Source: an uncultured Rhodospirillales bacterium (GTDB lineage Bacteria > Pseudomonadota > Alphaproteobacteria > Azospirillales > Azospirillaceae). Taken from it: a stretch of 52,900 nucleotides of DNA. The translations under genes and the position numbers were made by a program. The DNA is taken from the NCBI GenBank assembly GCA_903856295.1, contig CAIOBP010000098.1:1-52900 (forward strand), in the 5' to 3' direction. The first letter of the stretch is position 1. The number at the start of each line of letters is the position of its first letter. Below the pieces are notes generated by a model. It was not told where the DNA came from. It was given only the letters and a program-made list of their open reading frames with translations, and searched no databases. Below, in pieces: positions 6,472 through 19,551 of this stretch.

Positions 6472-7695
6472 ATGAGTCTCCTGGGTTCGATCCGACGGCC
6501 GCTCCGGCTGGCGTCCTGGCTGGCCGCCGTTGTCTTGCTGGCGGCCGCGCTGCCCGCCGCCGCCGCCGAGCGCGTCGCCCTGGTGATCGGCAACACCAAC
6601 TATGCCGACAGCCCGCTGCGCAATCCGATCAACGACGCCCGGGCGATGAATTTGTCGCTCACCCATCTCGGCTTCGACGTCGTGCTCATCACCGATGGCG
6701 ACCAGCGGAGCATGCAGCGGGCCATCGGCCAGTTCAGCCGCAAGCTGCGCGGCGCCAAGGTCGCCCTGGTTTATTATTCCGGGCACGGCATCCAGGCCGG
6801 CGGCATCAACTACATGGTTCCGATCGGCGCCCAGATCGAGTCCGAAGGCGACATGCCGCTGGAACTGGTCAGCGTCGACGCCATCATGACCCAGTTGGTT
6901 CAGGCCGGCACCGACGTCAACATTTTGATTCTCGACGCCTGCCGCAACAATCCCTTCGAACGCGGCCTGCATCGCGCGATCGGCGGTGGCGGCGGCGGTC
7001 TGGCCTCGGTCTCGGCGCCCAAGGGCACGGTGATCGCCTATGCCACCGCCCCCGGCACCACCGCCGAGGACGGCACCGGCAACAACAGCCCCTACACCAC
7101 CGCCCTGCTCCGGGCCATGGCCGCGCCGGGCAAGAAGGTCGAGGAGGTGTTCAAGGACACCCGCATCGAACTGGCCCATGCCACCAACGACCGCCAGATC
7201 TCCTGGGAATCCTCGTCGCTGATCGGCGACTTCTATTTCTCGGCGCCGGGCGGCGCACCGCCGGCCCACGGCGCCACCGTTCACACCCCGCCCGCCCATG
7301 GCCCGGAGGCCGGCCACGAAGCGAAACCCACCGCTCCGGCAGCCGCGCCCACCGCCCCCGCCAGCGCCGCGCCGTCGAAGGTCAAGCACGAAGAGGCCGC
7401 CGTCACTCCGAACGCCGACACCAGCACCAGCCACGAGCGGGGCAAGATCGTCTTCGATATCGTCAACGGCCTCGACCGGCGGATCACCCAGCTCTACCTC
7501 GCCCCCTCCAGCGGCACCGACTGGGAGGAAAACGTCATTGAGTCACCCCTCGAAGGCGGCGAAACCCTGGAAATGACCGTCGACGACGGCACTTCCGAGT
7601 GTCTTTACGACCTCAAGGCGGTCTTCAAGGGCCGCAAGGATTTCGAGGAACGCGAAATCGACATTTGCAAGGTCCAGAGCTTCACCGTCGAGTAG
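6472..7695 (+). CDS. Secreted caspase-like (peptidase C14) protein with a C-terminal accessory domain
   Basis: 407 residues from ATG 6472, which has GGGGAGGG upstream. A signal peptide occupies about 1-32. The caspase p20-like domain (about 33-255) has the His of YYSGHG (H105) and the Cys of LDACRNNPF (C157), so the catalytic dyad is intact. A Pro/Ala-rich linker (about 258-320) leads to a C-terminal domain (about 322-407) that aligns along its length with the small secreted protein at 17245-17622: DWEE, GET, DLK and the CK near the end are shared. Bacterial members of this clan are thought to be Arg/Lys-directed proteases; the substrate here is unknown. It should act in the periplasm or outside the cell. 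Confidence 0.88.
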   Translation: MSLLGSIRRPLRLASWLAAVVLLAAALPAAAAERVALVIGNTNYADSPLRNPINDARAMNLSLTHLGFDVVLITDGDQRSMQRAIGQFSRKLRGAKVALVYYSGHGIQAGGINYMVPIGAQIESEGDMPLELVSVDAIMTQLVQAGTDVNILILDACRNNPFERGLHRAIGGGGGGLASVSAPKGTVIAYATAPGTTAEDGTGNNSPYTTALLRAMAAPGKKVEEVFKDTRIELAHATNDRQISWESSSLIGDFYFSAPGGAPPAHGATVHTPPAHGPEAGHEAKPTAPAAAPTAPASAAPSKVKHEEAAVTPNADTSTSHERGKIVFDIVNGLDRRITQLYLAPSSGTDWEENVIESPLEGGETLEMTVDDGTSECLYDLKAVFKGRKDFEEREIDICKVQSFTVE

Positions 7696-7712
7696 TCTGA
7701 GCGTCTTCTATC

Positions 7713-7765
7713 CAGAGGCTTCGCCCCTGGACCCCGCCAAAGGCCGGTGGCCTTTGGAAACCCGG
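7713..7765. repeat. Dispersed hairpin repeat, partial copy C (3' half)
   Basis: Contains the 9-bp stem CCAAAGGCC (7737-7745) and GGCCTTTGG (7749-7757) with loop GGT, preceded by GCCCCTGGACCCCG as in copy A. The stem ends 11 nt downstream of the pbpC stop codon (minus strand), the same spacing as in copy A behind the formate dehydrogenase gene. Confidence 0.8.
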
Positions 7766-7768
7766 ACG

Positions 7769-9847
7769 TCAGCGCACCTGGAAATCGGCGCTGGCGCTGC
7801 GACCCTCGGCATCGATCACGGTGACGCGGGCGAAACCGGGACCCTCGGGGCGCCATGTCGCCTCGCGCTTGCTCTCGCTGGCCTCCAGCGGCCGGCCGTT
7901 GATCATCCAGGTCAGCGGCCGCCGCCCCCCGGCGGCGCTGAAAGTCACCGTCGCGCGCGGACCGTCGCCGAAATCCTCCTGATCCAACACCAGCCCCGGC
8001 GTCGGAAACACCAGCCGCAAGCGCTCGGGATCGGCCAGGGTCAGCGGCCGGCGTTCCGGATCGCCGGCCTCGATCCGCCGCAACAGGGCCGGGGCGTGCG
8101 CCGCGATCGGCTCGACACCGGCCGGCGCGCCGGGGCCGGGCGTGGCGCTGGTGGCATCGTCGAGCAGGTCGAACACCCGATAGAGCAACGGCGCGGCGGT
8201 GTTGCGGCCATAGCGATCGGGGCTGGGCGTGCCATCGGGCCGTCCGACCCAAACCCCGACGGTATGACGGGACCCGACCCCGAAGGCCCAAGCATCGCGA
8301 AAGCCGAAACTGGTGCCGGTCTTGAGCGCGATCACCGGCCTCAGACTAACCTCGCCCGCCGGCACCAGACCGGACGGCGGCGGCGTGCCCTGAAGAATCC
8401 GCCGCACCTGCCACGCCGCCCCGGCCGAGAGCAGGCGCCGCACCGGCCCCGTCGCGCCCCCCGGTTCGAACAGCAGCGGCGCCACCTCGCCATCGCGGGC
8501 CAACCCGACATACAACGTCGTCAGGTCCAGCAGATTGATCGAGACGCCGCCCAGGGCGATCGGCAGGCCGGGCTCGGTGGTGCCTTTGGGAAAGACCAGC
8601 CGGGCGCCGGAGCTTTTCAGCCGCTCGGCGAAGCGCGACGGGCCGATGCGGTCGAGAATCAGCACTGCCGGCACGTTGAGCGACATCTGCAACGCTTCCC
8701 GCACCGTCAACTCGCCATGGAACCCACGGTCGAAATTGGCCGGGGCGTAATCGCCGAAGCGGGTGGAAACATCGGCGACCAGGGTCTCGGGATGGATCAC
8801 CCGGTCATCGAAGCCCAGGCCATAAATGAACGGTTTCAACGCCGACCCCGGAGAGCGCACCGCCCGCACCATATCGACCCAGCCATTGCGGCTGTCGTCA
8901 TGGGGATCGGGCGCCCCCACCGCCGCCAGCACCGCGCGGCTGGCGTTGTCGACGATCAGGATGGCCAGCCCGCCATGCTCGACCAGCGCCGGCAGCTCCC
9001 GCCGGACCAGCGTTTCCAACTGGCGCTGCAGGGCGCCGTCAAGGGTGGACGCCACGCTCACCGCGCCGGGATGGCGGGCGCGCAGGGCATCGGCCAGATG
9101 GGGCGCGGCATCGGGAAACGGCCGCTGGCGCGTCGGCACCGGCTCGGCCATCGCCTCGCGCGCCACCCGCTCGGAGAGCACTCCGGCGGCGGCGGCCCGG
9201 GCCAGCACCTTATCGCGGGCGGCTCGGGCGGCTTCGGGCAGGCGGTCGGGACGCAGCCGGCCGGGCGCCTGGGGCAAGGCCACCAGCAGCGCCGCCTCGG
9301 CCGGCGACAATTCGCGCGGCGACTTGCCGAACCAGGCCAGCGCCGCCGCCTGCACCCCTTCGAGAGCACCGCCGAACGGCGCCAGAGTCAGATACATCTC
9401 GAGGATGGTCCGCTTGTCGTAGCGCGCCTCCAGCTGCACCGCCCGCGCCATCTCCCGCAGCTTGCCCGGCCACGAGCGCCGATGCGGCTCCAGCAGCCGC
9501 GCCACCTGCATGGTCAGGGTCGAGGCGCCCGAAACGATCCTCCCGGCCCCGAAATTCTGCCCCACCGCCCGCGCCAGCGCCAGCGGATCGACCCCGGCAT
9601 GGCTGAAGAAGCGCCGGTCCTCATAAGCGGTCAGGATATCGAGATAAACCGGCGCCACCACCCCGGCCGGTGGCAACCGCCACGTCCCCGCGCCGCTGGT
9701 GAACATCCGCAGCGGCGCCCCGGCGCGATCGCTCACCGTCACCGAAAGATCGGACAGGCGCTCCAGCGGCGGCGGACACAGCCGGTCGAGCAGCAGAACG
9801 GCGGCGGCCAGCGCCGCCGCCGCCAGAGTCAACCGCCGCCCCTTCAT
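7769..9847 (-). CDS. pbpC: Penicillin-binding protein 1C
   Basis: 692 residues. After an N-terminal membrane anchor (about 7-20), a GT51 glycosyltransferase domain shows catalytic Glu E76 in YEDRRFF and GASTLTMQ (107-114). The transpeptidase domain has SPGSALK (active Ser S335, K338), SLN, and KTGT. A C-terminal BiPBP_C-type beta domain follows (about 600-692). It would polymerise and crosslink peptidoglycan at the inner membrane, or act in repair; E. coli PBP1C is mainly a glycosyltransferase. It lies 30 nt downstream of the alpha-2-macroglobulin gene on the same strand, the conserved pairing seen in many proteobacteria. Confidence 0.93.
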   Translation of the reverse strand: MKGRRLTLAAAALAAAVLLLDRLCPPPLERLSDLSVTVSDRAGAPLRMFTSGAGTWRLPPAGVVAPVYLDILTAYEDRRFFSHAGVDPLALARAVGQNFGAGRIVSGASTLTMQVARLLEPHRRSWPGKLREMARAVQLEARYDKRTILEMYLTLAPFGGALEGVQAAALAWFGKSPRELSPAEAALLVALPQAPGRLRPDRLPEAARAARDKVLARAAAAGVLSERVAREAMAEPVPTRQRPFPDAAPHLADALRARHPGAVSVASTLDGALQRQLETLVRRELPALVEHGGLAILIVDNASRAVLAAVGAPDPHDDSRNGWVDMVRAVRSPGSALKPFIYGLGFDDRVIHPETLVADVSTRFGDYAPANFDRGFHGELTVREALQMSLNVPAVLILDRIGPSRFAERLKSSGARLVFPKGTTEPGLPIALGGVSINLLDLTTLYVGLARDGEVAPLLFEPGGATGPVRRLLSAGAAWQVRRILQGTPPPSGLVPAGEVSLRPVIALKTGTSFGFRDAWAFGVGSRHTVGVWVGRPDGTPSPDRYGRNTAAPLLYRVFDLLDDATSATPGPGAPAGVEPIAAHAPALLRRIEAGDPERRPLTLADPERLRLVFPTPGLVLDQEDFGDGPRATVTFSAAGGRRPLTWMINGRPLEASESKREATWRPEGPGFARVTVIDAEGRSASADFQVR

Positions 9848-9877
9848 GACACCCTCCCGGTCTTGGCCGAGTTCAGG

Positions 9878-12800
9878 TCACGGCCCCGCCGGCAGCACCG
9901 TGATCCGCCCCGTCGCCTGCCGGGCGAAGAAGCGGGGCTTGTACATGTCCTCGACATGAGCGCCGGGCAGCTCGTAACCGCCCGGCGTAACGGCACGGAC
10001 CAGGAAGGCCAGCGTGAACTTCGGGCTGCTTTCGCTGAGATCGACCGCCGCGATATAGCGGTCGTCGCGCAACTCGGCGGCCACCGTGTCGGTGAGTTGG
10101 GGCAGCCAGTGCAGTTCGGCGAGACCGCCGGCCCCGAGGCTCTTGTTCTCCAGTTCCCAACCGGCGGCGAGCGGCTGGGTGACGATCGCCTGATGGAACA
10201 GCTTGGTCGATGACTCGCCCTCCAGCACCACCACGAAGACGTCGTTCTGCTTGACCTGATCGAGATTGACCGGCGTGCCGTCGCGCCGGAAGAAATTGCG
10301 CTTGATCTTCAGACCTTCGCGCGCCGCCGGCCGGGCGACCGCGGGCACGCCGTAGGTGGCGATCGCCTGCCAGACCGGCTGGCTGCCGCCATTGTGAATC
10401 TTCACCCCCGCGGCCAGCTCGGCGGCGGAAGGCGTCAGGCGCAACGGATCGCCCTTGCCCAGCGACGGTCCGCCCTCGCGGGTCAGCGCCAGCGGCGTCG
10501 CCCCCTTCATCAGGCTGTGCGCGGCCAGCACCAGCCGGGCCTGCTCCTGGGTGTTGGTCTCATGCACCGACGCCGCATTGGCCGGCATCCGCTCCAGCAG
10601 GGTCGGCAAGCGGCCGTTTCCGGCCATGCCGGTCTCGGTGGCCAGCGTCACCAGAGCGGCGGCATCGCGCAGGGTCGAGCCGTAATCGTCCCGCCAGACA
10701 TCGCGGGCCAGTTGCGACATCGCCGAGGCGAAGGCGACCTCGGCCCGGTCGCGGTCGCCGAGACGAGCCAGCGCCGCCCCGACCTGTCCCTTGGCCAGCG
10801 GTGTCGGCAGTTTCGCGGTGAAGGCGTCGGCGAAGTAACGCACCGGCCCGGCGGTCAGCACCCCGGCCTCGGCCAGGGTGTAGAGGGCATAGGCGCGGCT
10901 GGCCAGATCGCCGGGCTCGACCCCACCCTCGATGGCATGCTGGCGCAACCAGGTCAGACCGGCGAGATAGGGCGCGTCGGGCACCGGGTGCTTGGCGGCG
11001 CGGGCGCGGGTCAAAAACTCCATGGCATAGGCGGTCAGCCAGTTTTCCGACTGGTTGTTGGCGCTCCACAGCCCGAAGGAGCCGTCGAAGCGCTGCTTGT
11101 CCAGCACCTGGGAAATCGCCTGATCGACACGGGCCTCGATATTGTCGTCGGGGGCGTGCTGGGCGCCCAGAGCCAGCGCGACGTCGTTGACCACCAGCAG
11201 CGGCAGCGCCCGGCTGACCACCTGCTCGAGGCAGCCATAGGGATAGCGATCGAGCGCCGCCAGCAAACCGGCGACATCGAAGGGCGGACTGGCGCTGAAG
11301 CTGAGCGAGACGCCGGCGGTCCCGGGGACGAAACCGGCCAGCACCGAGGCATCCATCACGCTGTCGAGACCGGGCGGAACCTGCCGGGTGACGAAGTCGG
11401 TCTCCACCGCCCGCGACGGCCGGACGGTGATGCCCAGTTCCTGACGCACCGACACCGCTCCGGGGCCATCCAGCGGCCCGTCGACGGTGAGCACGATGCC
11501 GCCAACCCCGGCGCCATCGCCGGTCACCGGCAATTCGAGGCTGCGCCGCTGCTCGCGGGCGAGGTCCAGGATTTGCCCGCCCTGGGGCTGAACCACCCGC
11601 ACCGGCCCCTCGCCGATCACCGACACCCGATAACGTCCGGCCGGAGCCTCGACATTATGCAGGGAGACGGTCAGGCGGCCATCGTCGCCGGGCGCGAGGA
11701 AGCGGGGCAAGGTGGCGTCGGCGACCAGCGGATCCCGCACGATCAGCTTGGTCGAAGTCGCCCCGACCCGCGTGCGGTCGAAGGCCACCGCCATGATGCG
11801 CAACTGGCCGTTGAAGTCGGGAATATCGAGCTTGATCCGGGCCTTGCCCTGGGCGTCGAGCTTCACCGGCCCCTTGAACAGCGAGACCACGATCACCGGC
11901 ACCTTGGGCAGGCCGCCGGCCAGACCGCCGCTGTCGCCACCCTGGCGCAACTCGCCCATCGGACCATCGATGGTGTCGATCAGCCGGCCGTAATCGTCAC
12001 GGATATCCAGCCCCAGCGCCCGCTTGCCGAAGAAATGACTTCCCGGATCCGGCGAGTCGAACGAGGTAAGTTGCAGAATTCCCTCATCGACGGCCGCCAG
12101 GGTGACATAGGCGTCGGCACCGGGGGTGGCGCTGACCGGCACCTCGATGGTCTGGCGCGGCCGGACCATCTCGGGCAGGTCGATGGCCAGCGCCAGCGTG
12201 CGCTCGGCGGGATCGACGGTCACCCAGGTCAGGCCGATCGCCCGCACCGGCATCCGCTCCTTGCCATGGACCGGCGGACGGTACACCGTGGCGGTGACGT
12301 AGGCGCCCGGCCCCCAATTGGCATCGACCGGGACATCGACGGTGGTGCCGCCGGCCGGAACCGACAGGCTGCGGGTCAGATGCAGACGGTCGGTGGCGAC
12401 GGTGAGCAGCACCTCGCCGGCGAAGGGCGGCTGAATGCGGATGTGGGCGGTTTCACCGGCCTTGTAGGACTCGCGATCGGCGCTGACCTCGACGGTATCG
12501 GGCGTGTCGCCGACATTCGGACCGGAATCCCAGCCCGAGCTGAAGCGGTAGGAAGAGGCGACGCCGGTCCCGGTGTCGGTCACTTCCAGGCGATAACGGC
12601 CCCAGGGCAGCGCCCCGACATCCTGCACCGCCGGGCTGGCGGCCGACACGGCGAGCGTGCCGTTGCGCACCGACTGGTCGCGCTGGTTGACGCGATATTT
12701 GTAGTGGCCCTGCTCATAGTACCATTGGAAATCGCGATGCTCGGCCACCAGTTCCCAGCGCAGGCCGGACTTGGCGATGCGGTTGCCCGCGGCGTCGACG

Positions 12801-15127
12801 GCGATCACCGAGAAGCTGGCGGCGCTGCCCTCTTCCACACGCTCGCCGTCCGAACCGGAGGCCGAGGCGATGCCGATGGCGTAGGGCTGAGTGCGCACCG
12901 GCACCGTGATCGACTTGCGGCTCGGCCGCCCGCCCGGCTCGGAAACCGCGACCCGGATCACCGCCCGCAACGGCTTGGTGGTATCGGGCCGGGGCGGCAG
13001 ATCCACCGCCAGCCGGGCCTTGCCCTCGGCGTCGGTGGTCGGCAGCACCAGGTCGAGCGCCCGCCCGGTCACCTGCTCCTGGGCCAAACCGAAGCGATAG
13101 CCCTTGTGCTGGGGATAGGGGGTGCTGTCCTGCTCCAGCGACACCTGGGCGTCGCCGCCCAGGCCGGCGGCGGGCGGACCATAGAGGAAGCGCGCGGCGA
13201 TCCCGACCTCGAACGGCTTGCCCGGCTCGATCACCGGCCCGCCGGCGGACAGTTCGACCGCGAGGCGCTCGGGCATGAACTCCTCGACCTGGAACTCGAG
13301 CTTGCCGACCGGCTCGCCCTTGGGGTCGCCATAGGCCTGCACCGACCAGCCGCCCAACGGCGCCGAGCGGCTGAGAACCAGCGGCAGGGTGAAGCCGCCG
13401 GCGGCGGCCGGCTTGAGCGTGCCCGACCAGTATTCGGTGCCGCTGGGACGCAGCACCTTGAGGGTCAGCGGGAAATTATCGACGGCGACGGTCCGGTCAT
13501 CGCGCAGCAGAGCGGTGATGTTGACGGTCTCGCCCGGACGGTAGACGCCACGGTCGCTATAGAGGTAGGCGTCGAGCGGCCCCGGCTGGGCGCGGCCGCC
13601 GACGCCCCGGTCGCTGAGATCGAAGGCGGTCAGGGTCAGGTCGAGCACCGCGAAGTCGCCATCCTTGCCGGAGGCGGTGACCAGCAGCGGCGATTGCCCG
13701 CCCTCGCCCCGGGTCAGGCCCTCGGCGAAGTGGGCGTGGCCCTCGGCGTCGGTGACGACGTGCCCAAGCTCGGAATTGTTGCGGGCGAGCAGCCCGATGT
13801 CCACCCCGGCCAGCGGCTTGGCCGAGGCCAGCGACCGGGCGAAGACGTGAACGCCGTCGGCGCCGCGGGTGGTGGTGATGCCGATATCGGAGATCATCAG
13901 CCACTGGGTGGCCTTGCGCCAGGGCTTGATGTCCTCGGCCACATCCACCGGCTCGGCGACCACGGCATAAAGGCCGGGCTTGGGCTGGGGAATGATCTGG
14001 CGCACCGCGAGACCGGTGACGCCTTCCTTGTTGCGCTCGCCCTTGACCGCGAGCTTGCCTTCCCACACCAGTTCGCCATCATTGTTTTTCAGGCTGCTGG
14101 CCTGCCACGAGGACAATTGCTGATTGAGGTTCTGCTCCTTGGCCTGGGTGACCAGGGCACGGTCGTTGATCCGGTAGACCTTGAGTCCGACGGTATCGAG
14201 ATTGACCGTCAGCACCGGCACGCCGCCGGTATCACCGCGCGCCAGGATGAAGGACTGGCCCTTGAAGGCCACCGAAGGCGAGCGGTCGGGCACCTGGACC
14301 CGTTGCGAGACATCGGCCTTCAGGCTCAGGCCATCGATGCCGGGCAGGCCCTGACGCACCGTCAGCTGATAGGTCGAGCCATGGCTCAGGCCCGAGAGGC
14401 ACAGCTCCGCGCCGTCGGCAATGGCGGTAACCCGCGCCGCCGGCTGAAGCTTGACGAAATCCTCGAAATGAATGTCGCGGCCGGTCTTCAGCTGGTCGGA
14501 AAAGGTCAGGCACAGCCGCGCCGGATATTCATCGGCCGACACCGAACTGTTCTTCAGCGACAGCCCGACCAGCACCCGCAACTCGGCCATCCGGTGCTCG
14601 ATTTCGGGGGGCGGCAGCCGCGCGTCCTTGGCGTCGGTGAGCACGGCGCGATAGGCGGCCAGGGCGTCGCGGGGCCGCTTGAGCGGTCCCTCGAGCAGCC
14701 GGGCCAGCCACAAGCCGTTTTCAACCCGATCGCTGCCCGGGTCGGACTTGGAATAGCCGAGCCAGCCGGCCTGCAGCGCCCGGTTCAGATTGGGCGGCGT
14801 CTGTTCGGCGAACGCCCGGGCCAGCGCCATCCAGGTCGCCGGCCGTTCGTCGCGAACGCCGATCGCGCGCTCGAACGACTGAACCGCCTTGACCATGTCC
14901 CGCGCGGCCAGGGCTTGCCCCGCGAGATTGATCGCCTCGTCGATCAGCTTCTGGTTGGCCGCGGGCGGCAGTTTGGTGGTGAGCGTGCCGGCATAGGCCT
15001 GGGCGTCGGCATCGAGCCCAGGCAGTTCCAGCCGGTCGGCCAGCGCGGCGGGCGCCGCCGTCACCAGGGCGACCCCGGCGCAAACCAACAGCAAAAGCAA
15101 ACGAAGGACGCTGGCGATGTGAACCAT
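9878..15127 (-). CDS. Bacterial alpha-2-macroglobulin (YfhM/MagD type) with thioester motif
   Basis: 1749 residues, as expected for large bacterial alpha-2-macroglobulins. An N-terminal signal sequence (about 1-30) is followed by macroglobulin-like beta domains. The thioester CLEQ is at residues 1299-1302 (in YPYGCLEQ), followed by the alpha-helical toroid. It would trap attacking proteases in the periplasm by covalent thioester chemistry, guarding a cell wall repaired by PBP1C, whose gene follows 30 nt downstream. No convincing lipobox is seen (LLVCAG has Val before Cys), so this copy may be anchored differently or free, unlike the E. coli lipoprotein. GGGAG precedes the start. Confidence 0.93.
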   Translation of the reverse strand: MVHIASVLRLLLLLVCAGVALVTAAPAALADRLELPGLDADAQAYAGTLTTKLPPAANQKLIDEAINLAGQALAARDMVKAVQSFERAIGVRDERPATWMALARAFAEQTPPNLNRALQAGWLGYSKSDPGSDRVENGLWLARLLEGPLKRPRDALAAYRAVLTDAKDARLPPPEIEHRMAELRVLVGLSLKNSSVSADEYPARLCLTFSDQLKTGRDIHFEDFVKLQPAARVTAIADGAELCLSGLSHGSTYQLTVRQGLPGIDGLSLKADVSQRVQVPDRSPSVAFKGQSFILARGDTGGVPVLTVNLDTVGLKVYRINDRALVTQAKEQNLNQQLSSWQASSLKNNDGELVWEGKLAVKGERNKEGVTGLAVRQIIPQPKPGLYAVVAEPVDVAEDIKPWRKATQWLMISDIGITTTRGADGVHVFARSLASAKPLAGVDIGLLARNNSELGHVVTDAEGHAHFAEGLTRGEGGQSPLLVTASGKDGDFAVLDLTLTAFDLSDRGVGGRAQPGPLDAYLYSDRGVYRPGETVNITALLRDDRTVAVDNFPLTLKVLRPSGTEYWSGTLKPAAAGGFTLPLVLSRSAPLGGWSVQAYGDPKGEPVGKLEFQVEEFMPERLAVELSAGGPVIEPGKPFEVGIAARFLYGPPAAGLGGDAQVSLEQDSTPYPQHKGYRFGLAQEQVTGRALDLVLPTTDAEGKARLAVDLPPRPDTTKPLRAVIRVAVSEPGGRPSRKSITVPVRTQPYAIGIASASGSDGERVEEGSAASFSVIAVDAAGNRIAKSGLRWELVAEHRDFQWYYEQGHYKYRVNQRDQSVRNGTLAVSAASPAVQDVGALPWGRYRLEVTDTGTGVASSYRFSSGWDSGPNVGDTPDTVEVSADRESYKAGETAHIRIQPPFAGEVLLTVATDRLHLTRSLSVPAGGTTVDVPVDANWGPGAYVTATVYRPPVHGKERMPVRAIGLTWVTVDPAERTLALAIDLPEMVRPRQTIEVPVSATPGADAYVTLAAVDEGILQLTSFDSPDPGSHFFGKRALGLDIRDDYGRLIDTIDGPMGELRQGGDSGGLAGGLPKVPVIVVSLFKGPVKLDAQGKARIKLDIPDFNGQLRIMAVAFDRTRVGATSTKLIVRDPLVADATLPRFLAPGDDGRLTVSLHNVEAPAGRYRVSVIGEGPVRVVQPQGGQILDLAREQRRSLELPVTGDGAGVGGIVLTVDGPLDGPGAVSVRQELGITVRPSRAVETDFVTRQVPPGLDSVMDASVLAGFVPGTAGVSLSFSASPPFDVAGLLAALDRYPYGCLEQVVSRALPLLVVNDVALALGAQHAPDDNIEARVDQAISQVLDKQRFDGSFGLWSANNQSENWLTAYAMEFLTRARAAKHPVPDAPYLAGLTWLRQHAIEGGVEPGDLASRAYALYTLAEAGVLTAGPVRYFADAFTAKLPTPLAKGQVGAALARLGDRDRAEVAFASAMSQLARDVWRDDYGSTLRDAAALVTLATETGMAGNGRLPTLLERMPANAASVHETNTQEQARLVLAAHSLMKGATPLALTREGGPSLGKGDPLRLTPSAAELAAGVKIHNGGSQPVWQAIATYGVPAVARPAAREGLKIKRNFFRRDGTPVNLDQVKQNDVFVVVLEGESSTKLFHQAIVTQPLAAGWELENKSLGAGGLAELHWLPQLTDTVAAELRDDRYIAAVDLSESSPKFTLAFLVRAVTPGGYELPGAHVEDMYKPRFFARQATGRITVLPAGP

Positions 15128-15194
15128 GGCACACTCCCGTTCCGTTTCCCCGGTCTGGATACCGGGGCCTGCGCGCCGCGCGAGCGGCGCGGTA

Positions 15195-17108
15195 TCAGAA
15201 GATGATCCCGAAGCTGATCATGGCGATCAGCCAGGGCAGAAAATAGCCAACCGGATAGAGCGCCAGCAACACCCTGTCGGTGTGGCGGATCTCCGCGAGC
15301 CGCCCGGCGGTCTCTCTGCGTTTGAGATAGACGTTGAGCACGATCAATAAAGCCCCGACCATGAAGGCACTGGCCAAAATCGTGTCCATGAAGGTGATAT
15401 AGCCCAAGCGGGGCAGATCGTTGGAGATCGTGAAGTTGAAGGCGACGAACAACAGCAGGTGGGCACCGGTGACATCGATGCGCTTGTTATAGTCCTTCAG
15501 CAAGAAGGTCGCCCAGGACGTCATGAGGATGATCATCAGCGGCATGAATATCTTCATGATATAATAGCCGAGATGCCGCTTGGCCGCGATATGGAAGGTA
15601 AAGCGCGCCTTCATCTCCTCGGTGAGACTGGTCGAGGTATCGAAGCTGGACACCACCCACTCATCGACTCCGACCTTATTGCCCAGCGCGTTCTTGGTCG
15701 GGCTCGCGACAAACTTATAGCGCTCGCTCGGATAGATCGAATCGATGTGAATGTAGAAATTCTGGGAATCGAACGGAAACTGGCGGAAATCCAGGTCCGG
15801 CGCCTGGAGCGAGGCCGAAAAGCGCTCCATATAGCGGGCGGTGCCGTTGGACTCGACGAAGATCAGCACCCCCTGGTTGATGCGCCTGCCCTGAAGATTG
15901 TAGATCACGAAATCCGGCCAGCGCAGATGGCGCTCTTCGACGAAACTGCGGAAGCCATCCAAATCGAAGGTCTTGAAGTTGCAGCGACAACTGGCCGGGC
16001 TGAACGCGTAGCCCTGATCCCGCCATTGCAGTCTCATGGTGGCGACCACCGAGAATTTGCCGTCGCGCTGGGCGATGCTGGAAATCTGGTCCAGCTGAAT
16101 CGCGATCGTCACCGGAGTCGGCGGCCGGGCCACCGGCGGCCCATGGTCAGCGCCGTCACCACCGCCACCATCCACCGCCACCCGGGCGTTGTTGCGCAAT
16201 TGCAGCCGGTAGGCCCCGAAAGACTCGGAGTCGCCGCTCAAGCGCAAACGGTATTCGTCGGCCGGCGCCTTGAAAACATAGCGCAGCACGGCGGCCCGGC
16301 CATCGGCGTCGACCGTTGAGCGGGCCAGAACTTTCTGTCCGAAATCAAGCAGTTGAACGACCGGCGGCCGCTTGCCCTCGGTGTTCTCGATCCGCACGCT
16401 CAGCACATCCCCGACGTCAAACGGGGTGAGGGTCAGGATGGCGCGCGGCCGGGCGGCGCCCAGTTCGCCGGTCACGGTCTGAAGTTGGCTTTCGGCCGGA
16501 TTGATCCCGGCGTCTTCGGTGGCGAACACCCGACCCGTGGCCCGGCTGTCCTGGGTGATCGCCGCCGCCGGATTGAGCCCGAGCACCAGCCGGAAGCGGC
16601 CGAAACTGGGCTCGGCCGCCGCGCCGCCGCTCGCCGCCGCCGGCGTTCCGGCAACCAGAATCAGGTAATCGCCATCCCGGGGAATCGTGCCGTTCAACGT
16701 CGCGTCGTAGCCGGTGTCGTCGCCATCGTTCCAGGCGAGAAAGAAGGTCGCGGCCACCTTGTCCAGCGCCCCGCGCAGGCTGTCCCCCTCGAGCACGGCC
16801 CGGTCGGTCTCGGTCTTGAACTGCTTGCGGAAGGCATCCGAATCGAAGGGCAGCGCCACCAGGGCCAAAACCGGGGTGAGATTGCCCGAGGAGCCGCTCA
16901 AATGGGCGCCGACCCGGTCGCCGCGCTTCAACCCGCTCAACCGGTAGGCGGCCAGTTCGCCGGGCCTGATCCCCCCGTCCTGCACCTGAATCGCGGGCGA
17001 AACCGCCACCGCAGCGCCCGACGCCTGGGCCGCAGCCTCCTCCGGCGCCAGCCCGATCCCCAGCGCCAGCACCGCAGCCGCGATCAGCCCCCGAACATTC
17101 CTGAACAT
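15195..17108 (-). CDS. Prokaryotic pentameric ligand-gated ion channel with extra N-terminal domains
   Basis: 637 residues from ATG 17108, chosen because it begins a clear signal peptide (about 1-28); upstream in-frame codons look non-coding. Residues about 35-290 form two beta-rich modules resembling pre-peptidase C-terminal domains. The Cys-loop-type ligand-binding domain (about 300-510) has the signature FPFDSQ (444-449). Four helices follow: M1 about 514-536 with its conserved Pro, M2 about 543-565 (IDVTGAHLLLFVAFNF), M3 about 572-593 and M4 about 612-636. An extended N-terminus is known from DeCLIC, a Desulfofustis channel. It should be an inner-membrane channel gated from the periplasm; ligand unknown. 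Ungapped alignment to GLIC from memory puts Asp at 2' and Leu at 9' of M2. Confidence 0.9.
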   Translation of the reverse strand: MFRNVRGLIAAAVLALGIGLAPEEAAAQASGAAVAVSPAIQVQDGGIRPGELAAYRLSGLKRGDRVGAHLSGSSGNLTPVLALVALPFDSDAFRKQFKTETDRAVLEGDSLRGALDKVAATFFLAWNDGDDTGYDATLNGTIPRDGDYLILVAGTPAAASGGAAAEPSFGRFRLVLGLNPAAAITQDSRATGRVFATEDAGINPAESQLQTVTGELGAARPRAILTLTPFDVGDVLSVRIENTEGKRPPVVQLLDFGQKVLARSTVDADGRAAVLRYVFKAPADEYRLRLSGDSESFGAYRLQLRNNARVAVDGGGGDGADHGPPVARPPTPVTIAIQLDQISSIAQRDGKFSVVATMRLQWRDQGYAFSPASCRCNFKTFDLDGFRSFVEERHLRWPDFVIYNLQGRRINQGVLIFVESNGTARYMERFSASLQAPDLDFRQFPFDSQNFYIHIDSIYPSERYKFVASPTKNALGNKVGVDEWVVSSFDTSTSLTEEMKARFTFHIAAKRHLGYYIMKIFMPLMIILMTSWATFLLKDYNKRIDVTGAHLLLFVAFNFTISNDLPRLGYITFMDTILASAFMVGALLIVLNVYLKRRETAGRLAEIRHTDRVLLALYPVGYFLPWLIAMISFGIIF

Positions 17109-17187
17109 CCCGCGTGCCCTGCTGCCCGACCTGCCGCCACCATACCCGTTTTCGGAGCGGCCGGAAAGAAATCGGCGCAAACGACAA

Positions 17188-17223
17188 CGGCCCCGGCTCC
17201 ATCTGTCGGCGGAACCGGGGCCG
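17188..17223 (-). terminator. Candidate intrinsic terminator of the small secreted protein gene
   Basis: Perfect 9-bp stem CGGCCCCGG (17188-17196) with CCGGGGCCG (17215-17223), 18-nt loop. Read on the minus strand it follows the stop at 17245 and is trailed by TTGTCGTTTG. It would separate the small gene from the ion channel gene, making independent transcription units likely. Confidence 0.55.
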
Positions 17224-17244
17224 TCGGGACAAACGCGCCAGAGC

Positions 17245-17622
17245 TTACTCGACCGAAGCGCTGGTGGTGTCGGTGCTGCGATTGTACTTGATCGTGATCT
17301 TCTCAATCTTGCACAGGTCGAAACCCTGCCACATGGCGGCGCTGCCGTCATCGGTGTAGACGACCTTCAGGTCCCACTTGCAGCCGGTGGCCGCGCGATG
17401 GAACTTGATTTCGGTGGTTTCACCGTTGTCGAGCATTTCCCGGCCGAGCACGTCTTCTTCCCAGTCATTGCTGCCGGTCGGAGAAACGTAGACTTCCTTC
17501 AGCTGATAGCCGGTCTTGTTGATCAGGACGAAATCCTGCTTCCCCTCGGCACGAGCCTGACCGCTCAGGCCACCCAGAACCAGGGTCAAAGCCAGACCCG
17601 CAGCCACGATAATTTTATTCAT
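17245..17622 (-). CDS. Small secreted protein with the domain shared by the caspase-like protein
   Basis: 125 residues from ATG 17622 (GAGGGCGAC just upstream). The signal peptide is about 1-25, ending in QARA before EGKQD. The mature domain (about 28-110) has VYVSP, NDWEEDVLG, NGETTEIKF, CKWDLKVVY and DLCKIEKI; the two Cys could pair. It aligns end to end with residues 322-407 of the caspase-like protein at 6472-7695. Proteins of this sort are, as I recall, sometimes labelled argininosuccinate lyase in databases, but nothing here resembles that enzyme. It sits just upstream of the ion channel gene on the same strand, with a probable terminator between. Function unknown; a periplasmic binding or partner role is speculation. 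Confidence 0.82.
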   Translation of the reverse strand: MNKIIVAAGLALTLVLGGLSGQARAEGKQDFVLINKTGYQLKEVYVSPTGSNDWEEDVLGREMLDNGETTEIKFHRAATGCKWDLKVVYTDDGSAAMWQGFDLCKIEKITIKYNRSTDTTSASVE

Positions 17623-17883
17623 GTCGCCCTCGCATATGTTGAAACGCAAAGCCATCGCAGAGAAGAACCCACGGCCATCCTGCCAGCGGATTCAGAGCGC
17701 CGGAAGCCCCGGCTTCGTTCATTGATATCGGGTAGCCGCCACCCTGACAACCCAGAACTTGAACCCCGGCGCCCCGGAGACGTCTCTCCGATCCGCCGAT
17801 TGAACTGGCTCGGGCGCTCGCGAAAACAATACCCCCGGCGCGCCGGGCTTTGCTACTCTCCGGGCCGGGGAGGAAACTCGGAC

Positions 17884-19551
17884 ATGGCAGAGGGCCTGAC
17901 GGTCCGGAAGGCTCGAGGCGCGTTCTTCACGCCGCCCGAGATCACCCGGTTCATCAGCGATTGGGCGATACGCGCGCCCACCGACACCGTCCTCGAGCCG
18001 TCCTGCGGCGAGGCGGCGTTTCTGCTCGCCGCCGGCCGGCGGCTGCGCGACCTCGGCGACTCCGGTGCGGGCGCCGGACGGCTGCACGGCATCGAGATTC
18101 ACGACGCCTCCGCCGAGCTGGGGCTGGAGGCGCTGCGCGCCGCCGGGCTGGAGGCCGCCATCCGGGTCTCGGACTTCTTCGACTGCCCGCCGACCCCGAG
18201 CTTCGACGCCGTGGTCGGCAATCCCCCCTATATCCGCTATCAGCACTTCCGGGGCGAGGCACGCGGCAAGTCGCTGGAAGCGGCGCTGGCCGCCGGGGTG
18301 CGGTTGACCGGCCTGTCGAGCTCCTGGGCGGCCTTCGTGATTCACGCCAGCCAGTTCCTCAAGCCCGAAGGCAGGCTCGGGCTGGTGCTGCCGGCCGAAC
18401 TGCTGAGCGTCAATTATGCCGCCGAGGTGCGGCGCTTTCTGCTCGGGCGCTTCTCGCGGGTGCGGCTGGTGATGTTCGACACCCGGGTTTTTCCAGAAGT
18501 GCTGGAAGAGGTGGTTTTGCTGCTCGCCGAGGGCAGCGGCGGCGCCACCAGCTTCGAGGTTTTCCAGGCCCGCGACCTCGACGATCTCGCCCGGCTCGAC
18601 ACCCACGGCTGGACCGGCTTCGACCTCGGCGCCGTCGATAAATGGACCCCGGCCCTGCTCTCCCAGGCCTCGTTCGGGGTCTATCAGGCGCTGTGCCGCC
18701 AGGGGGCGTTCTCGCCGCTGCTCGGCTGGGGCGAGACCTATCTCGGCGCGGTCACCGGCGCCAATGGCTTCTTCACCCTCACCCAGGCCGAGGCCGAGGC
18801 GCTGCGCCTGCCCCGCCACGATCTGCTGAAAATCTCGCCACCCGGCGCCCGCCACCTCTCGGGCCTGAGTTTCCCGGACGCCCAATGGCAGGCCCTGCGC
18901 GACGGCGGCGGGCGCTGCTGGCTGTTCTATCCGCGCGACGGCAAACCTGCCGCCGCCGCCCGCCGCCACATCGCCCGGGGCGAGCGCGAGAAGGTGCCCC
19001 AGGCCTACAAATGCCGGGTGCGCAAGCCCTGGTGGCGGGTGCCGCTGGTCGCCGAACCCGACCTGATCCTGACCTACATGAATCACGACCGCCCCCGGCT
19101 GGTGAGCAACGAGGCCGGCGTTCATATCGTCAACTCGGTTTACGGCGTCTCCCTGCACCCTCACCTGCGCGAATTGGGACGATCCCTGCTGCCGCTGGCC
19201 GCGCTCAACAGCGTCACCCTGCTCGGTGCCGAAATGGTCGGGCGCGCCTATGGCGGCGGCCTGCTCAAGCTGGAGCCGCGCGAGGCCGACACCCTCCCCG
19301 TCCCGCCGCCCGAAGCGCTGGCCGCCCTCGCGCCCCAGCTGGAAGCGCTGCGCCCCCGGGTGCTGGCGGCGCTCGGCCGGGGCGACGGCGCCCAGGCGGT
19401 CGAGTTGGTCGACGAGGCGGTGCTGACCCGGCCGCTCGGGCTCGGAGCCGGCGAGTTGCAGGTGCTGCGCGAGGCCCGCGCCTTCCTGTTCCGCCGCCGG
19501 GTCGCCCGCGCCCGCCCCGTCGCCAAGGACGAGATCCATGGCCAGGATTGA
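17884..19551 (+). CDS. Adenine-specific DNA methyltransferase (Eco57I/TaqI-like N6 MTase)
   Basis: 555 residues starting after a strong GGGGAGGAAA. The N-terminal half is a class I SAM methyltransferase with ARGAFFTPPEI, SAM-binding VLEPSCGEAAFL (about 36-47) and catalytic NPPY (113-116). The C-terminal half, including WWRVPLVAEPDLILTYMN and SLHP, has the character of a target-recognition region of gamma-type MTases. It would methylate adenine in a specific site. The next gene overlaps it by 14 nt and encodes a probable endonuclease, so this is most simply the modification half of a type II restriction-modification system. The recognition site cannot be inferred. Confidence 0.88.
   Translation: MAEGLTVRKARGAFFTPPEITRFISDWAIRAPTDTVLEPSCGEAAFLLAAGRRLRDLGDSGAGAGRLHGIEIHDASAELGLEALRAAGLEAAIRVSDFFDCPPTPSFDAVVGNPPYIRYQHFRGEARGKSLEAALAAGVRLTGLSSSWAAFVIHASQFLKPEGRLGLVLPAELLSVNYAAEVRRFLLGRFSRVRLVMFDTRVFPEVLEEVVLLLAEGSGGATSFEVFQARDLDDLARLDTHGWTGFDLGAVDKWTPALLSQASFGVYQALCRQGAFSPLLGWGETYLGAVTGANGFFTLTQAEAEALRLPRHDLLKISPPGARHLSGLSFPDAQWQALRDGGGRCWLFYPRDGKPAAAARRHIARGEREKVPQAYKCRVRKPWWRVPLVAEPDLILTYMNHDRPRLVSNEAGVHIVNSVYGVSLHPHLRELGRSLLPLAALNSVTLLGAEMVGRAYGGGLLKLEPREADTLPVPPPEALAALAPQLEALRPRVLAALGRGDGAQAVELVDEAVLTRPLGLGAGELQVLREARAFLFRRRVARARPVAKDEIHGQD

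Follow-up and report, generated by a model that had tools for sequence, protein, structure and literature searches.

Which function is served by a domain that occurs both as the tail of a secreted caspase-like peptidase and as a small secreted protein encoded nearby? The question is raised by a stretch of 52,900 nucleotides from an uncultured Rhodospirillales bacterium (hereafter the window). As stated in the preliminary description, the genes of a penicillin-binding protein 1C (PBP1C), an alpha-2-macroglobulin and a ligand-gated channel lie between the two domain-encoding genes, and the Pfam matches agree with these assignments (Table 1).

Table 1. Features of the window surrounding the two copies of the shared domain (G050 is a second genome of the same genus).
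Feature	Position	Strand	Basis
Secreted C14 caspase-like peptidase, 407 aa	6472..7695	+	Pfam PF00656, E 4.4e-41; translation; 6472 is the likely start
C-terminal domain copy of the caspase-like protein, 84 aa, predicted beta-sandwich	7441..7692	+	Homology to the small protein; AlphaFold2 pLDDT 82.0
Penicillin-binding protein 1C (PBP1C)	7769..9847	-	Transgly, Transpeptidase and BiPBP_C domains; convergent with the caspase gene; 83% identical in G050
Bacterial alpha-2-macroglobulin, thioester motif CLEQ	9878..15127	-	A2M domains; 80% identical in G050
Pentameric ligand-gated ion channel with long periplasmic N-terminal region	15195..17108	-	PF02931, E 7.1e-12; 17108 is the likely start; orthologue in the G050 cluster
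GC-rich hairpin (17-bp stem) in the gap separating small gene and channel	17181..17222	-	Fold z -4.49
Small secreted protein (signal peptide and one free domain copy), 125-aa precursor	17245..17622	-	Translation; orthologues 51-73% identical; AlphaFold2 pLDDT 84.6

By its profile match and its predicted catalytic dyad the product of the first gene is a caspase-like peptidase. The Peptidase_C14 domain scores 141.5 bits against a curated cut-off of 21.4, and the translation contains the dyad residues in the motifs YYSGHG (His) and LDACRNN (Cys). The domain follows a signal peptide and is connected to the C-terminal domain copy by a Pro/Ala-rich linker. The small protein was previously described as a mature protein of 125 residues. 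This length is that of the precursor, while the domain itself was correctly recognised; reading of the sequence places the end of the signal peptide near ARA/EGK, which would leave a mature protein of about 100 residues. A methylase open reading frame (17398-19551, plus strand) overlaps the small gene in antisense; its true start is probably located further in and its N-terminal part (17398-17850) is likely to be spurious.

The caspase tail and the small protein are homologous copies of one domain of 80-100 residues. In a pairwise blastp comparison they share 25 identical and 47 similar residues over 86 positions, covering the full length of the domain (49.7 bits, E 2e-12), and phmmer reports an i-E of 3.6e-13. 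The Smith-Waterman score of the pair is 121, compared with 27.1±4.8 for shuffled tails (maximum of 55 among 2000). When the genome of origin was searched using the free copy as query the tail was retrieved at E 1.1e-9; a profile search yielded E 1.2e-26, this profile itself containing the tail. A third domain copy is present in the same genome on a different contig (C201). The alignment along the whole length and the common motifs DWEE, GET and DLK as well as the Cys pair, all reported in the preliminary description, are thus borne out, and the W, D, L and both Cys are also kept in relatives.

According to the alignment of relatives, the domain is characterised by the pattern F/L-x-L-x-N-x-T/S-G, Y-V-S-P, D-W-E-E-D-V-L-G, a Cys preceding W/Y-D-L-K-V-V-Y, and D-L-C near its end. 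Among 27 diverse members the positions N9, W28, L33, C55, D58 and C78 show little or no variation, and the conserved W, D, N and Cys positions are also present in the fused copies. In the proteins of the window the domain is not covered by any Pfam or NCBIfam model. None of the 27 members exceeded a curated cut-off of these libraries, the scattered matches of single members being at E >= 0.03. Sequences in the PDB provided no convincing match to the domain, and a PDZ profile matched neither the domain nor the scanned Trypsin_2 fusions described below.

AlphaFold2 predicted all-beta structures for both copies (pLDDT as given in Table 1), with the exception of one short helix in the tail. Six strands correspond between the two models and the free copy has one additional C-terminal strand; the two predictions had alignment rows in common and are therefore not fully independent. 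The predicted fold class of both copies is a beta-sandwich, no family being assigned. In the structure comparisons the unannotated NMR structure 2mca is found near the top for both (Z 9.5 for the free copy, 8.2 for the tail), and VHL, HGSNAT and cytolysin domain 4 rank alongside it; the free copy additionally ranks the PepT extracellular domain and transthyretin. The best matches reach Z 9.9 at 11% identity in VIA-align (for the free copy) and E 0.009 in Foldseek. Such Z values barely exceed the background, if at all, and many unrelated sandwiches follow closely. Assignment to a known fold family was rejected, the Foldseek and VIA-align matches being only middling, and so was a membrane-binding role suggested by the likeness to domain 4 of the cholesterol-dependent cytolysins, which falls in the Z range of unrelated sandwiches.

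Profile searches detected the domain in 63 of the 82 genomes of the order, in 48 of 387 genomes sampled over the class and in 52 of 397 sampled over the phylum. It usually occurs as one free secreted protein per genome, and in most genomes of the order the sole copy is free. In family f22 up to 16 copies per genome were found, often as two to five tandem domains per secreted protein; ten secreted proteins of this family consist of four or five tandem copies and little else (L248, L252, L253, L254, L255, L256, L257, L259, L260 and L262). Many genomes, including three of the five of the window's genus, contain the free form and no fused form. Conversely, in the five genomes of genus g121 (G189, G923, G924, G925 and G926; 94-98% complete) all copies reside within one Trypsin_2 protein, so that the domain appears to work there without a free partner.

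The fusion partners were surveyed in 184 distinct domain-bearing open reading frames from the fetched loci, which were sampled by open-frame length and do not form an exhaustive census. One copy and nothing else recognised was found in 131 of them, two to five copies and nothing else recognised in a further 39. All partners that were recognised are peptidases: Trypsin_2 (HtrA-like S1) in 11 proteins, C14 in two and CHAT in one. In Pfam scans each of the eight Trypsin_2 proteins submitted matched that family, L264 matched CHAT (E 1.9e-8), and the two caspases matched C14. The occurrence of one domain both free and as a protease tail, already recognised in the preliminary description, therefore extends beyond the caspase: Trypsin_2 fusions occur in two other families (f22 and f109), f22 also contains the CHAT fusion, and C14 fusions were found only in the window's genus. 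No PDZ domain was detected by Pfam in the scanned Trypsin_2 proteins despite their HtrA-like peptidase domain, and no NTPase-, GAP- or vWA-type core was found among the domain proteins scanned in this non-exhaustive census. The domain precedes the Trypsin_2 or CHAT region or follows the Trypsin_2 (L258) or C14 region, which suggests an add-on module. The secreted CHAT fusion (L264:724-3084, minus strand) carries the domain N-terminally and CHAT C-terminally, and the expected H (THADG) and C (LLGCETG) can be read from its sequence. In a further secreted protein (L096:5186-6259, plus strand) one domain copy comes after an unrecognised N-terminal domain that is present as two repeats. Other long open frames were considered as fusions and discarded, most of them representing read-through of GC-rich sequence ahead of a normal signal peptide; no Pfam domain was found in eight of them.

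In the subfamily tree (71 rows, 83 columns, many open forks) the caspase tails fall into a starred group of 12 rows together with free proteins (98/95), apart from the copies of the Trypsin_2 and CHAT proteins. Since the caspase tails belong to another subfamily than those copies, the fusion to peptidases presumably arose more than once. The small protein next to the caspase lies in a different supported subfamily from the tail. An origin of the pair by local gene duplication was therefore rejected. The tree supports this without proving it, as an AU test over the 83 columns did not reject a topology in which both were forced into one clade (p 0.236).

Among the genomes of the order, only that of the window and G050 were found to carry the C14 fusion; G050 thereby provides a second genome pairing the domain with a caspase in the same cluster. 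G050 retains the order channel, alpha-2-macroglobulin, PBP1C and convergent caspase-tail gene with 70, 80, 83 and 79% identity, respectively; the caspase tails alone are 71% identical and the free gene is 73% identical to that of the window. In G050 two contigs overlap end to end at 99% identity (331 bases), so that its free gene belongs to the same cluster; upstream of this gene lies a second channel (25% identical). The pair of alpha-2-macroglobulin and PBP1C genes is a known operon that has been proposed to trap proteases and repair the cell wall (PMC4498604).

In the three other genomes of the genus (G047, G048 and G049) the free gene is found on contigs carrying neither a channel nor a caspase-tail gene, and their caspases bear other tails, e.g. 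repeat-containing or FGE-sulfatase-like regions according to the sequence. Exchange of the tail thus seems to be normal for secreted caspases. Three genus-mates also encode a secreted papain-like peptidase divergently beside a secreted C14 caspase with a different tail (L290:8069-9863, L291:2583-4386, L292:6118-8146); in G050 the papain-like gene is located in the window-type cluster instead. Beyond close relatives no conserved neighbourhood of the free gene was found across 29 loci.

A conserved operon of the free gene and the channel was considered and rejected, since the two are on separate contigs in G047, G048 and G049 and the papain-like peptidase gene is inserted between the free gene and the orthologous channel in G050. 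In the window the hairpin (-47 kcal/mol for the stretch) separates them; it follows the small gene, precedes the channel and might represent a terminator or attenuator. Because of its strength, co-transcription of both genes is doubtful. Pentameric channels were detected within the order only in the window's genus, three of its five genomes having two matches. Taking together this restriction, the separate contigs in three of five genomes and the hairpin, the link to the channel drawn in the preliminary description is weak and the channel looks incidental. The channel of the window has approximately 300 residues ahead of its ligand-binding domain, a layout with a long N-terminal region that is reminiscent of DeCLIC.

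The shared domain is thus real, widespread and secreted, carries no name and is used free, in arrays and on three kinds of peptidase. Its homology, secreted architecture, fold class and fusion partners, and the occurrence of the free and the fused form each without the other, are all computed results. We infer that the domain binds a target and that this target is common to the free and the fused forms. The reading that fits best is that of a substrate-docking or tethering module: a non-enzymatic recognition module outside the cytoplasm, whose free form binds alone and whose fused form docks a protease, to which we assign a probability of about one half. The free domain, usually in one copy and in up to five tandem copies, would bind its target alone in the periplasm or outside the cell; a domain fused to a peptidase (C14 here, Trypsin_2 or CHAT elsewhere) would dock the protease either to a target of that class or to its substrate. 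Comparable arrangements are known from PDZ domains, which dock HtrA proteases, and from carbohydrate-binding modules, which dock glycosidases. As each form does without the other in some genomes, an obligatory relation between the free and fused copies, be it as decoy, substrate or partner, is disfavoured, and a shared target, or independent targets, would be the economical explanation.

Among the alternatives, a homotypic adaptor survives best and is nonetheless rather unlikely. The free or arrayed copies would then be scaffolds that gather protease-fused copies by domain-domain contacts, forming an extracytoplasmic analogue of the EAD- or Death-like domains. The kinds of peptidase and the copies in neighbouring genes match what has been described for EADs, the effector-associated domains found in bacterial conflict systems (PMC7159879, PMC8195603), the tandem arrays reach five copies, and the free gene remains in the cluster of the caspase-tail gene in two species. 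On the other hand, the g121 genomes hold protease-borne copies only, even if copies within one protein could self-associate; the neighbouring copies do not appear to be closest relatives, whereas those of EADs tend to be, and the cluster contains no gene in which an NTPase or sensor core was recognised. That such a secreted beta-sandwich adaptor couples C14, CHAT and trypsin-like peptidases to free and arrayed copies in a periplasmic protease-assembly network is more doubtful still.

The domain could also be a regulatory tail covering the active site of the protease, with the free protein inhibiting the same proteases in trans. The fusion to three kinds of peptidase, the secretion of the free form and the presence of alpha-2-macroglobulin, itself a protease trap, in the same cluster are in line with autoinhibition, but one small fold would hardly inhibit two unrelated catalytic clans, the linkers are long and Pro/Ala-rich, several tandem copies may occur per protease, and the fused form is missing from most genomes that have the free one; we regard this possibility as improbable. 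Similarly small is the chance that a common, stable, secreted beta-sandwich was joined to proteases by neutral shuffling and adds solubility or spacing only. The confinement of the caspase fusion to two genomes of one genus would suit such a scenario, which leaves the repeated fusion to peptidases as the sole recognised partners, the preservation of W, D, N and Cys at their positions in the fused copies and the 71% identity between the tails of two species poorly explained.

The preliminary description had proposed a common partner or a decoy or substrate relation, of which the shared partner survives in the docking reading; that the free protein serves the caspase as a substrate, or diverts it as a decoy, is highly improbable. 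In favour are the secretion of both proteins and their conserved cluster in two species. Against it, most genomes, and three of the five of the window's genus, have the free form and lack the caspase fusion, five genomes of g121 have the fused form only, and tail and free protein belong to different subfamilies.

A docking or tethering module would be comparable to the PDZ domains of HtrA/Deg proteases, which accompany an extracytoplasmic S1C/Trypsin_2 domain as accessory modules. The new domain likewise adjoins Trypsin_2 outside the cytoplasm; it is unrelated to PDZ in sequence and is, in addition, found as a free protein, in arrays and attached to caspase-fold peptidases. The top VIA-align match of the free domain is the extracellular domain of PepT1/PepT2 (Z 9.9, rmsd 2.5, 88 aligned residues, 11% identity), which has been reported to bind trypsin (PMC4597091), but there is no detectable sequence relation and an Ig-like resemblance of such size is common.

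Bacterial metacaspases, which are common in Alphaproteobacteria, are C14 peptidases with a His/Cys dyad, an N-terminal signal and varied architectures (PMC3501461), and the caspase-like protein of the window has the same C14 dyad and N-terminal signal. As the domain belongs to no Pfam family, Pfam-based surveys of metacaspase architectures could not have named the tail. What is new here is a widespread domain family that is absent from the family libraries searched and whose only recognised partners are proteases of two unrelated catalytic clans. It offers a concrete handle on the targets of secreted bacterial caspase homologues, as the tail or the free protein could be used as bait.

The closest parallel in organisation is provided by the EADs, small non-enzymatic domains found on caspase-like and trypsin-like peptidases with more copies in neighbouring genes (PMC7159879, PMC8195603). 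The likeness consists in the fusion of the domain to caspase and trypsin peptidases together with a copy in a neighbouring gene, the latter for the caspase in the clusters of the window and G050. EADs are mostly alpha-helical and coupled to NTPase cores, whereas the present domain is a secreted, predicted beta-sandwich with no NTPase core seen, and their neighbouring copies tend to be closest relatives, whereas those described here appear from the tree not to be sisters. Should the homotypic adaptor nevertheless prove true, the logic of effector-associated domains would extend outside the cytoplasm.
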